Assembly (NCBI RefSeq): GCF_006539865.1
Contig: NZ_BJNV01000037.1
Span: 1-47,456 of the forward strand
DNA from: Zoogloea ramigera
GTDB taxonomy: Bacteria; Pseudomonadota; Gammaproteobacteria; Burkholderiales; Rhodocyclaceae
Direction of reading: 5' to 3'
DNA: 47,456 nucleotides
The notes under the pieces are model-generated. The model was not told where the DNA came from. It searched no databases and was given only the letters and a program-made list of their open reading frames with translations. The position numbers and the translations under genes are program-made. Shown piece after piece: positions 9,805 to 33,536 of this stretch; positions within the stretch are counted from its first letter, which is position 1, and every line of letters begins with the position of its first letter.

Positions 9805-11832
9805 ATGACCGAAAACATCAAGAAACCCAAGGACGTGAGCATCGCCAAGGCCAAGGGCCGCCCCATGCTCACCTGGGTCGGCAAAAAGCCGCTGGCCCGC
9901 GTGAGGGCCTATCCAGCACAAGCCATCGAGCGATTCGACGCGACGGCCGGCGGGGCCGTTGCCCTGCAGGAAGCGGATTGGAGCGATTGGCCCAAGGATG
10001 TGCCGAAGGGCGGCCTGCTGTACCACGGCGACAACAAGGACGTGCTGGCCCACCTGCTCGCCAACGGCTTTCGCGGCAAGGTCAAGCTGATCTACATCGA
10101 CCCGCCGTTCGACAGCGGGGCGGACTACGTGCGCAAGGTACAACTGCGCGGCGCCAAGGGCACCGTCAAGATCGACGGCGAGGACTACACGCTGGGCGAG
10201 CAGGTGCAGTACAGCGATATCTGGGCGAACGACAACTACCTGCAGTTCATGTATGAGCGGCTGTTGATGTTGAGGGAGCTCCTGAGCGACGAAGGTGCTT
10301 TGTATCTTCACTGCGACTGGAATCGCAGCCACCAACTTCGGATGGTTTTAGACGAAGTATTCAGCGCAGAATTTTGCCGAAACGAGATCATCTGGAAGCG
10401 CACTTCGGCACGCAGTGACTCAAAGTTCTATAACCACATTCACGACGTGATCCTCTTCTATTCCAAGGGGAATGCTCCGACGTTCAACGAGCAATTTACA
10501 CCATATGAAAAGGCCTATCTGGACAAGTACTTCGGGATGAAAGATGCCGACGGGCGCAGATTCGCCTCGAAAGACGCAACTCAAGCGGGGCTCAGAAATG
10601 GCGCCACAGGAACGCCATGGCGAGGCTTTAACCCCGCGTCGAAGGGAAACCACTGGAAGGTGGTGCCGACCGAGTTGGATAGACTAGATCAGGAAGGCCG
10701 TATCTACTGGCCGGAGAAAGAGGGTGGTTGGCCGCGCCTCAAACAGTACCTTGATGAAACAAAGGGTCGTGCAATTCAGTCGATTTGGGATGACGTCATG
10801 CCGGTCAACAGTCAAGCAGACGAGCGCGAGGAGTACCCAACGCAAAAGCCTGTCACGCTACTCGAACGCTTGATTCGGTCCTCTACGAACCCAGGGGACA
10901 TAGTTCTAGACTGCTTTATCGGGTCGGGGACTACGGCGGCAGTGGCGCAGCAGTTGAACCGCCGCTGGATCGGCTGCGACATCAACAAGGGCGCCATTCA
11001 GACCACCGCGAAGCGCCTTCAGGAGTTGATGCGAGCTCAGGCCTCCACCGCCGGCATGCCCCAGCAAGGCGACCTGATCGGCACTTCCGAGCCCACCCAG
11101 CAGCCGTGCCAGCTCGGTTTTGCCACCTATCGGGTCAACGACTACGACCTGCAGATCCAGCATAACGAGGCGGTCGAACTGGCCTGCCAATACCTCGGCG
11201 TCACCCGCACGCGCACGGACTCATTTTTTGAAGGTACCCAGGGCGGCCGCCTGGTCAAGATCGTGCCCTTCAACCATCCATTGACGCCGCTGGACCTGGA
11301 GGCGGTGCGCAACGAGCTGAAGACCCGCCCCACCGAAGAACGCGACGTGATGCTGGTCTGCCTGGGCTGGCAGCACGACGCCCGGGCCTGGGTGGACAGC
11401 TACAACCGCAACCGCCCCGTGAACAAGCTGCATGTCGTGGAGCTGCGCACCGACCGCAAGCTCGGCGGGATCATCAAGCACGAACCACTGAGCGCCCAGG
11501 TCAGCGCCCAGCGCGTGGGCGAAGGCGCCGACGCCCAGTTGGTGGTGGAGCTTCAAGACGTCGTGTCGCCCACCATCATGCAGCGCCTGAACCTGGAACA
11601 AGGGGTGTTCCGCGCCCAGATCACCGACTGGCGTGCAGTGGTGGACTGCATCCTGATCGACACGCAGTTCGACGGCCAGGTCTTCAACGTCACCCTGGCC
11701 GATGTCCCCGAGCGGAAGCAAGACCTCGTGAATGGGCGCTACGAACTGCCGGCGCCGCCTGCGGGGTCGACCGTGGCGGTCAAGATCATCGACATGCTGG
11801 GCGAGGAGTTGGTCGTCACCACGGCAATCTGA
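9805..11832 (+). CDS. mod: Type III-like site-specific DNA methyltransferase (Mod)
   Basis: This 675-residue amino-methyltransferase has beta-class motif order: the catalytic IDPPFDSG (DPPF at about 99-102), then the S-adenosylmethionine motif DCFIGSGTT near 370. The region between them holds the target recognition domain. That central block (about 10250-10925) is clearly AT-richer than its surroundings: bases 10441-10500 are 29/60 G+C, against 40/60 at 9961-10020 and 41/60 at 11281-11340. This suggests exchange of the recognition domain. Together with Res it should form a complete restriction-modification system methylating adenine or cytosine N4 at an unknown asymmetric site. No homopolymer or short tandem repeats suggesting phase variation were seen. 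Confidence 0.94.
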   Translation: MTENIKKPKDVSIAKAKGRPMLTWVGKKPLARVRAYPAQAIERFDATAGGAVALQEADWSDWPKDVPKGGLLYHGDNKDVLAHLLANGFRGKVKLIYIDPPFDSGADYVRKVQLRGAKGTVKIDGEDYTLGEQVQYSDIWANDNYLQFMYERLLMLRELLSDEGALYLHCDWNRSHQLRMVLDEVFSAEFCRNEIIWKRTSARSDSKFYNHIHDVILFYSKGNAPTFNEQFTPYEKAYLDKYFGMKDADGRRFASKDATQAGLRNGATGTPWRGFNPASKGNHWKVVPTELDRLDQEGRIYWPEKEGGWPRLKQYLDETKGRAIQSIWDDVMPVNSQADEREEYPTQKPVTLLERLIRSSTNPGDIVLDCFIGSGTTAAVAQQLNRRWIGCDINKGAIQTTAKRLQELMRAQASTAGMPQQGDLIGTSEPTQQPCQLGFATYRVNDYDLQIQHNEAVELACQYLGVTRTRTDSFFEGTQGGRLVKIVPFNHPLTPLDLEAVRNELKTRPTEERDVMLVCLGWQHDARAWVDSYNRNRPVNKLHVVELRTDRKLGGIIKHEPLSAQVSAQRVGEGADAQLVVELQDVVSPTIMQRLNLEQGVFRAQITDWRAVVDCILIDTQFDGQVFNVTLADVPERKQDLVNGRYELPAPPAGSTVAVKIIDMLGEELVVTTAI

Positions 11833-29564: not shown

Positions 29565-31396
<1,832 letters not shown>

Positions 31397-31463
31397 GGAA
31401 CCTCCCTGGATGGCTTCGCTGCACGGCGCAGCTTGGGGCGGATGTTCGTCTGCGGGAGGGGGT

Positions 31464-31491
31464 GACGTCCTTGACTGTGGTCAAGGACGTC
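31464..31491. promoter_or_regulatory. 28-bp perfect palindrome with Dnr/FNR-type core upstream of norC
   Basis: The arms GACGTCCTTGAC and GTCAAGGACGTC flank TGTG and are perfect reverse complements. The core TTGACTGTGGTCAA (31471-31484) is a symmetric CRP/FNR-superfamily site of the TTGAC-N4-GTCAA kind typical of Dnr/NnrR control of nor genes. At -41.5 it would place the transcription start near 31436 and give a leader of about 40 bases. The extra symmetric GACGTCC arms are unusual. Confidence 0.75.
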
Positions 31492-31644
31492 GGATCACAC
31501 CGGGACAGCGGCATATCTGCCGGGCGTGGAGCGCGGCGTGGCGCGCGCTGCCCGCCGCCGGGCACTGCCAGACAGCCGCCCCGGCGGGCTCGTCGGGTAG
31601 CGAAAAGGCGCGGAGCGGGCCCGTGGCGCAGGGCCGGCGCAGCG

Positions 31645-31893
31645 TCAGGTGAGGCGCACCGGACGGGCGGCGAGGGCTTCCTGGAGGGTCGGGAAAGTGC
31701 GCGTGCGATCGGCAGCCAGCCGATAGTAGCGGCGGTCGTCCGCGTGGCGCCCGCAATAGCTGGTGATGGTGACGCGCTCGATGCCCGGGAAGCCCGGGTT
31801 GGCCTCGATGGTCTTGAGGGCGCCGGTGCCGGTGTCGTACACACCGGGGCGCTCCCTGAGCACGTCGGAAATCAGCGGGGATTTGTTGTCCAT
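31645..31893 (-). CDS. Small protein of unknown function between norC and the HHDH-like gene
   Basis: This 82-residue protein has no signal peptide or membrane segment. The sequence includes LISDVLRERPGVYDTGTG, FPGIERVTITSYCGRHADD and YYRLAADRTRTFPTLQEALA; it looks like a small alpha/beta domain with one Cys. No family is recognised. GAGG precedes the ATG. It follows the halohydrin-dehalogenase-like gene by 79 bp in the same direction and may be co-transcribed with it; the norC promoter region lies downstream. Confidence 0.65.
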   Translation of the reverse strand: MDNKSPLISDVLRERPGVYDTGTGALKTIEANPGFPGIERVTITSYCGRHADDRRYYRLAADRTRTFPTLQEALAARPVRLT

Positions 31894-31972
31894 GTCGGCC
31901 TCGTGAATCTGCCCTGCACCTGGGCGGAGGATAGCACCGCGGCCGGGCGGCAGAAACCGCCGCGGCGGGCCC

Positions 31973-32656
31973 TCAGCGCGGCACCCAGCCGCCCCACATC
32001 GGGAAGACCTGGCCGACGAAACAGTCGGCCGCGGCACTCGCCAGATAGGCGCAGAAGGCCGCGTCCTCGTGGGCTGCCACCAGCCGGCCCAGGGGCACCT
32101 CGCGCTGCAGGCGCTCCTGGAAGCGCGGATTGGCCTGCACCTCGGGCGGGAAGTAGGTGGGGTTGTCCACGAAGTTCTGGGCGATGGCATTGACCTGCAC
32201 GTGGTGAGGCGCCATCTCGACGCCCAGCGCCTGCACGTAGGCGAGCTGGGCGCCGCGGGCCGCGCTGTAGGTGGACGCCCGCTTCATGCCGCGCAGGGCC
32301 GCAGCGCTGCCCATCACCACGATCTTGCCGGCGCCGCGGGCCACCATCTGGGGCAGCACCGCCCGGCACAGGCGCGGCAGCGGGGCGACCAGGGCCGCAA
32401 ACACGGCGCGCCATTCGTCCTCGTCCACCTCCAGGGCCGGGGTGGTCGGCGCCGGGATGGCCAGGTTGGCGACGAGCACATCCACCTGCCCGGCGGCCTC
32501 GACGACGACGGCCGGCGCGGCGGGGTCGAGGAGGCTCTCGGTGCTGGCGATCACGGTCGCCCCGCGGGCGGTAAAGACCTCGCACAGGGCCGGCCCCATG
32601 AAGGCATCGGCCTGGGTGATGAGCACGCGTTTGTCGGCAAGGGCAGTGTCGGACAT
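31973..32656 (-). CDS. Halohydrin-dehalogenase-like SDR-superfamily protein
   Basis: This 227-residue Rossmann-fold protein of the SDR superfamily lacks the coenzyme-binding TGxxxGxG motif. It instead has T14-x4-F19-x-G21 (TQADAFMG) and the catalytic pattern S117-x12-Y130-x3-R134, with Arg in place of the SDR Lys. These are the two signatures that define halohydrin dehalogenases (HheC: Ser132, Tyr145, Arg149), cofactor-free lyases converting vicinal halohydrins to epoxides and halide. Further resemblance to HheC includes GQVDVLV, a PTYFPPE loop and GQVFPMWGGW near the C-terminus. GGGAGG precedes the ATG at 32656. Activity and substrate are inferred. Confidence 0.82.
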   Translation of the reverse strand: MSDTALADKRVLITQADAFMGPALCEVFTARGATVIASTESLLDPAAPAVVVEAAGQVDVLVANLAIPAPTTPALEVDEDEWRAVFAALVAPLPRLCRAVLPQMVARGAGKIVVMGSAAALRGMKRASTYSAARGAQLAYVQALGVEMAPHHVQVNAIAQNFVDNPTYFPPEVQANPRFQERLQREVPLGRLVAAHEDAAFCAYLASAAADCFVGQVFPMWGGWVPR

Positions 32657-32799
32657 GGGAGCCTCCCGGAGGACGTGGGTTCGAAGAGGCAAGCTTACGC
32701 TCATCGCCCCGGGAACCCCATCCGGCCACGCGCCTGGCCCGGGCTTGAGTGTGTTGACGTGCCGGGGGCTGCTCGCCCCCACCGCCCACCCGACGCGCC

Positions 32800-32828
32800 A
32801 AAAAGCAGACGGGCCGCAATGCGGCCCG
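32800..32828 (-). terminator. Intrinsic terminator of the nap operon
   Basis: On the minus strand CGGGCCGC-ATT-GCGGCCCG forms a perfect stem 63 bp after the napC stop codon. It is followed by TCTGC and then a T-run. Confidence 0.7.
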
Positions 32829-32891
32829 CCCACTCCCCATCAGCCGGCCCCGGAGGGCGCGGCCGCTGCTGCTAAACGGCTGCCCCGGGGC

Positions 32892-33536
32892 TCAGCCCTT
32901 GTCGGCCTTCGGCGCTTCAGGCTTGGGCGTCTCCGGGTGGAACTCTTCCGGCGTCGCGCCTTCCTTCGGCGAGCCGATGGCTTGCTCGACCTCGGGCAGC
33001 GAGTGCGCGATGCCCTTGTGGCAATCGATGCAGGTCTTGCCCTCGTTGAGGCCGGTCTGGTGCATCTTGGACGAACGGCGGCCCTGCTCGGCGTAGTCGA
33101 AGCTGCCGAAGTTGTGGCAGTTGCGGCACTCGCGGGAGTCGGTCTTCTTCATCCGGTCCCACTCGTGCTTGGCCAGTTCGAGACGCTTGGCGTTGAACTT
33201 CTCGGGCGTGTCGATGGTGCCCAGCACCTTGTGCAGGACTTCGTTGGAGGCCTGGATCTTGCGGATCATCTTGGGGCCCCACTCCTTCGGCACGTGGCAG
33301 TCCGGGCAGGTGGCCCGCACGCCGGAGCGGTTGGAGGCGTGGATGGTGTTGCGGTACTCCTGGTAAACGTTGTCCTTCATCTCGTGGCACGAGATGCAGA
33401 ACTCTTCCCGGTTGGTCCATTCCATCGCGGTGTTGAAGCCGCCCCAGAACAGCACGCCGGCAATGAACAGCATCGCGGCGAAGCCCCAGCCCAGTGATCG
33501 GATACGGCCGATCAAACCCTTTTTGTTGGTATCCAT
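32892..33536 (-). CDS. napC: NapC/NirT-family tetraheme cytochrome c
   Basis: This 214-residue protein has an N-terminal membrane anchor ([20 protein letters not shown]) and four CxxCH heme sites: CISCH, CPDCH, CRNCH and CIDCH. NapC oxidises quinol in the inner membrane and passes electrons to NapB/NapA in the periplasm. The C-terminus after the last heme is a proline- and glutamate-rich tail of about 35 residues. It is the last gene of the nap operon, 25 bp after napB. Confidence 0.97.

Follow-up and report, generated by a model that had tools for sequence, protein, structure and literature searches.

The window, that is, the whole stretch of 47,456 nucleotides of Zoogloea ramigera DNA analysed here, encodes a protein that we read, at a probability of roughly 0.8, as a cofactor-independent halohydrin dehalogenase (HHDH) of the D type, whose gene would be a passenger in the variable spacer that separates nap from nor in one small Zoogloea lineage and which most likely performs a stand-alone job untied to denitrification. 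The features of the gene are as follows.

31973..32656, minus strand: D-type HHDH, 227 aa (motifs, PDB matches, purifying selection)
32594..32617, minus strand: codons of motif 1, T14-x4-F19-x-G21 (translation, counted from the ATG at 32656)
32255..32308, minus strand: codons of motif 2, S117-x12-Y130-x3-R134, the catalytic triad (translation, counted from the ATG at 32656)
32147..32179, minus strand: presumed halide loop, codons 160-170, QNFVDNPTYFP (alignment; low model confidence)

The frame opens with an ATG and encodes 227 amino acids followed by a stop codon. Its translation bears out both signatures named in the original prediction, which held that the coenzyme motif of short-chain dehydrogenases/reductases (SDRs) had been replaced by T-x4-F-x-G and that the active site read S-x12-Y-x3-R. 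Motif 1 is T14-QADA-F19-M-G21, in place of the glycine-rich SDR coenzyme loop, and motif 2 is S117-x12-Y130-SAA-R134, where an NAD(P)-dependent SDR has S-Y-x3-K. In the available text of PMC4989007 and PMC11976700, the patterns T-x4-F/Y-x-G and S-x12-Y-x3-R are given as HHDH signatures. Among HheD-type sequences no shorter than 215 aa, 121 of 124 kept both motifs; the window protein is one of the 124, and two shorter sequences were omitted. Natural variants of motif 1 also occur among D-type HHDHs: L051 and L128 differ at the Thr position and L094 at the Gly position.

Nine SDR paralogues are encoded in the same genome, seven of which were checked and two left out. Neither HHDH motif was found in any of these seven, all of which contain S-x(10-14)-Y-x3-K, and the HHDH motifs of the window protein are more than chance. 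The dN/dS ratio of the gene is 0.12 against L062 and 0.18 against L063; the gene is therefore under purifying selection and has been retained. It is extremely improbable that the protein is a normal NAD(P)-dependent SDR whose motifs arose by chance. Pfam and NCBIfam do place it in SDR families, but none of the listed NCBIfam matches reaches its cut-off, the glycine-rich coenzyme motif and Y-x3-K are both absent, and the score against HheD2 is 344 bits, compared with at most 80.6 bits for the best sorbitol dehydrogenase.

Sequence searches against the PDB returned HheD2 (7b73, 344 bits), HheD8 (8xxb, 304 bits), HheB (4zd6, 202 bits) and HheC (1pwx, 71.5 bits). Given both motifs and these matches, the proposed halohydrin-dehalogenase-like identity can be narrowed to the HheD subtype, whereas the suggestion that further loops resemble HheC does not agree with the low score of that enzyme. 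An AlphaFold2 monomer model computed from 42 sequences (mean pLDDT 81.8, pTM 0.81) placed HheD2, HheD8, HheB and the dehalogenase 6a41 in Foldseek ranks 1 to 10, with HheD2 and HheD8 as the closest solved proteins by both sequence and fold. Identity in the Foldseek alignments is 69% to HheD2 and 65% to the HheD8 mutant, within the 57-95% identity to verified HheD enzymes that the available text of PMC4989007 records for HheD19 to HheD38. Assignment to the HheD subtype is thus supported. Model confidence falls below a pLDDT of 50 at residues 119-121, 161-168, 185-192 and 221-227. The segment QNFVDNPTYFP, which from HHDH structures we take to be the halide loop, is identical in its letters to that of HheD2 and, at residues 161-168, contains the worst part of the model.

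Genes of this family are more frequent than the original prediction, which called such enzymes rare, had supposed. With a match threshold of E 1e-40 or better and the window genome included in every count, HHDH matches were obtained in 25 of 199 genomes of the family, 33 of 399 of the order (six of these being HheB-like, with Tyr in motif 1), 5 of 369 of the class and 14 of the 23 genomes of the genus Zoogloea. In one genome collection 493 HHDH-encoding stretches were found, and the best 80 of these 493 were taken further. The nearest named record to the window protein, at 96%, is that of the Zoogloea metagenome-assembled genome L062. The HHDH gene of another Zoogloea genome, G965 (L188:349-1028, minus strand), is frame-shifted.

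The immediate neighbourhood of the HHDH gene comprises the following features.

32892..33536, minus strand: napC, last gene of the nap unit (family matches)
32800..32831, minus strand: hairpin with T-rich tail after napC, terminator-like (folding z -2.0; pattern match)
31645..31893, minus strand: small gene of 82 codons downstream of the HHDH gene (no Pfam or NCBIfam match)
31471..31484, minus strand: TTGAC-N4-GTCAA palindrome upstream of norC, FNR/DNR-like
29565..31396, minus strand: norC (30971-31396) and norB (29565-30944)

The position of the gene beside nap and nor, as originally described, is confirmed by the best PDB matches of NorB (3o0r, 775 bits) and NapA (2nya, 1406 bits) and by NapH and NapG, whose scores exceed the curated NCBIfam cut-offs; for NapC and NapB the family matches fall short of the cut-off. 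To place this arrangement among relatives, the nap, nor and neighbouring proteins of the window were searched against all fetched HHDH loci, which after removal of nine duplicates amounted to 132 (126 HheD-type, window included, and 6 HheB-like). On both sides of the HHDH gene 92 of the 132 reach 3 kb, and some contexts are consequently unseen. Neither nap nor nor was found beside the HHDH gene in the 24 other family loci or in the 36 loci from the order and class, and either was found in 3 of the 80 collection loci (L062, L063 and L086; best 80 of 493). In L052 there is one weak NapH-like match, at 26% identity and about 8 kb from the HHDH gene. The placement hence occurs in 4 of 132 non-redundant loci, the collection part being the best 80 of 493, and all four belong to Zoogloea or the Zoogloeaceae.

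The HHDH gene lies on the same strand as nap and nor in the four genomes that share the placement. The contig of L063 stops short of nor. In genome G954, the contig that constitutes L086 starts inside the HHDH gene and the napC contig ends inside the start of the HHDH gene; these two contig ends have exactly 141 bases in common, and the order is therefore napC, HHDH, a 422-aa protein without Pfam match, norC and norB. The 82-codon gene adjoins the HHDH gene in the window, L062 and L063 only. The linkage of HHDH to nap and nor is local and not conserved, and the neighbourhood seems to be a peculiarity of a single small bacterial lineage.

The pairing of nap and nor has a broader distribution. 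All 16 of the Zoogloea genomes (of 23) that carry napC and norB on one contig have them within 12 kb of each other, with gaps, measured by hand, of 990 bp (G961) to 11.7 kb (G958). An HHDH gene lies between the two in 2 of these 16 islands (the window and G955) and elsewhere in the genome in 9, and the remaining 5 genomes have no HHDH gene. It follows that the adjacency of nap and nor is more widespread in Zoogloea than the placement of HHDH within it. Counted over the HHDH-bearing Zoogloea genomes, the gene is located elsewhere than nap-nor in 10 of 14; the tenth of these is that of G965, which lies at one end of a 33-kb contig whose first 8 kb contain no napC. Between napC and norC there is no gene at all in G961, a PAS-containing hybrid histidine kinase in L057, and phosphoserine transaminase (serC) together with a 405-aa protein without match in L060; L058 and L059 hold frames that are similar by eye. 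The spacer is thus a variable site in Zoogloea, being empty or holding a kinase, serC or HHDH. Across the spacers of the window (31397-32891) and of L057 to L060, the cargo varies by species in the manner of a preferred insertion site.

Signals flanking the spacer were found irrespective of its content. The stretch after napC, GGGCGGGCCGC-ATT-GCGGCCCGTCTGCTTTTT (32800-32831), folds somewhat better than its shuffled versions (z -2.0, with 8 of 200 shuffles as good). A similar hairpin was recognised by eye 3' of napC in 9 of 10 stretches, with or without HHDH: in the window, L057 to L063 and G954, the T tail being weak in L061, and not in G961. The hairpin pattern search matched the window alone, the hairpin after napC was absent from the output of the simple terminator scan, and the promoter scan returned nothing. 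On the other side, a TTGAY-N4-RTCAA box, which we presume to be an FNR/DNR site, is located 87-88 bp upstream of norC in all seven stretches that hold norC, with or without HHDH, and also precedes norC in G961. Palindromes like this box are unremarkable in the window on their own, with 2 matches at no more than one mismatch against 1.1 expected. Together, the predicted hairpin and box suggest that nap ends before the HHDH gene and that nor begins after it. Since both bracket the spacer regardless of HHDH, the gene has the appearance of a passenger lying between two units of transcription, and from their conservation we infer that it is probably transcribed separately.

These observations bear on the proposal, put forward originally as speculative yet tempting, that HHDH was recruited to the nap-nor island and uses Nap-made nitrite as its nucleophile, for instance by opening epoxides to nitrite esters that then yield diols. 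The available text of PMC4989007 lists nitrite as an accepted HHDH nucleophile giving diols via unstable esters, and four genomes share the placement. NorB also co-occurs weakly with HHDH among the 199 family genomes when these are tallied singly (20 of 25 HHDH genomes against 87 of 174 others, p 0.005, which counts as evidence for a link). By genus, that signal is gone (12 of 15 against 35 of 53, p 0.36), and NapA displays no co-occurrence (16 of 25 against 103 of 174, p 0.83), in tables that were counted by hand. A denitrification link through co-occurrence was accordingly rejected. Furthermore, the placement is missing from 128 of the 132 loci (collection part, best 80 of 493), 10 of 14 Zoogloea HHDH genes lie elsewhere, and the gene falls outside the apparent nap and nor units. 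Nap produces nitrite in the periplasm, and HHDHs are known as cytoplasmic enzymes. Recruitment for a nitrite-dependent role is therefore very unlikely, and a placement in 4 of 132 loci, a variable spacer and flanking signals that are independent of HHDH leave the proposal unsupported. If it were true, the family would gain a physiological partner ion other than halide.

The history of the placement was addressed with a 54-row tree, in which Thauera-type HHDHs encoded beside photolyase share a group with those of the window, L062 and L063 (97/95), and L086 groups with other Zoogloea (81/69), apart from the window group. Given the branches with strong support, the nap/nor label must have changed at least twice, and no bootstrap tree contained a single change. 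Two separate arrivals of HHDH at the nap-nor spot could account for this topology; two origins were not retained, because a single nap/nor clade is not rejected (p-AU 0.37). A single clade of the loci with HHDH in a liu-like gene cluster, described below, is likewise not rejected (p-AU 0.43). We regard as highly improbable the fuller scenario in which the Zoogloea nap-nor island captured a D-type HHDH, perhaps on two occasions, with respiratory nitrite as its natural nucleophile for clearing epoxides.

The remaining contexts were surveyed by clustering the open frames of the 132 loci (E 1e-10, 60% coverage) and listing families present in at least five loci. No neighbour family was found within about 3 kb of the HHDH gene in more than 8 of the 132 loci, of which 92 reach 3 kb on both sides, and genome context thus does not settle HHDH function. 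The recurrent contexts are bound to clades, as with an unidentified long gene in six other Zoogloea loci and pyruvate phosphate dikinase in four. In one D-type clade, the Thauera-type loci L064, L065, L066 and L070, and in one HheB-like clade, the loci L168, L169, L171 and L172, a DNA photolyase gene is found no more than about 2 kb from HHDH. In the literature searched, neither a nap/nor nor a liu placement of HHDH was met, which is weak evidence of absence, and no report pairing halohydrin dehalogenase with Thauera was found.

The context that does name a pathway is a liu-like (leucine/isovalerate) cluster, in which the HHDH gene lies between genes for a biotin-dependent carboxylase and HMG-CoA lyase in 5 of 132 loci (L071, with HHDH at 2855, and L077, L084, L135 and L136, with HHDH at 10001). 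HMG-CoA lyase starts about 65-90 bp downstream of HHDH in these loci. In L135 the HHDH gene directly follows the carboxylase stop, and in L136 the frame runs through. A fused carboxylase-HHDH frame was rejected for L136, the record of which has unread residues, L135 having two genes there. Such an arrangement would fit D-type HHDHs that serve acyl-CoA catabolism, with the nap-nor placement as a relocation. This reading is nonetheless very unlikely: it concerns only 5 of 132 loci, other or longer stretches lie upstream in L071, L077 and L084, and faulty assembly may explain why the frame of L136 runs through. Moreover, NCBIfam names the carboxylase only as a biotin carboxylase relative, its identity as methylcrotonyl-CoA carboxylase following from context alone, and we know of no halohydrin or epoxide step in the leucine/isovalerate pathway.

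The reading that we favour, a stand-alone D-type HHDH in a variable spacer, contributes one more D-type enzyme to a family with uses in biocatalysis. By analogy with characterised relatives, Tyr130, aided by Arg134 and Ser117, would take the proton of a vicinal halohydrin, after which the epoxide would close and the halide leave; the reaction could also run backwards, using halide or a different small anion. This anion would occupy the position that the nicotinamide has in an SDR, close to F19 and the QNFVDNPTYF loop. The enzyme might convert stray halohydrins or epoxides, for example, while nap and nor would form two separately controlled units on either side of its gene. The survey also indicates that D-type genes are common in relatives and have a different neighbourhood in nearly every clade, so that context, nap and nor included, does not reveal the natural role of HHDHs. 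According to the available text of PMC4989007, what HHDHs do in nature had yet to be settled; of the HHDH genes known at that time, only two shared an operon with an epoxide hydrolase, and other physiological functions could not be excluded.

Among the characterised systems, HheC (1pwx) has the family motifs and chemistry in common with the window protein, as far as the available text of PMC11976700 describes them, and differs from it in belonging to another subtype, with a match of 71.5 bits only. HheB (4zd6) is closer: it shares motif 2 and the fold, is about 50% identical when aligned by fold, and differs by a Tyr instead of F19 in motif 1, as seen in the alignment and in the available text of PMC11976700. 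HheD8 (8xxb, a chloride-bound triple mutant) has both motifs at 65% identity and differs in sequence. A near copy of HheD8, judged by eye, is encoded at L028, a locus in another genome of the family, with neither nap nor nor adjoining its HHDH gene. The closest counterpart is HheD2 (7b73), which resembles the window protein in both motifs, in fold and in the letters of the loop, with 69% identity over 225 columns, and from which it differs in sequence only.
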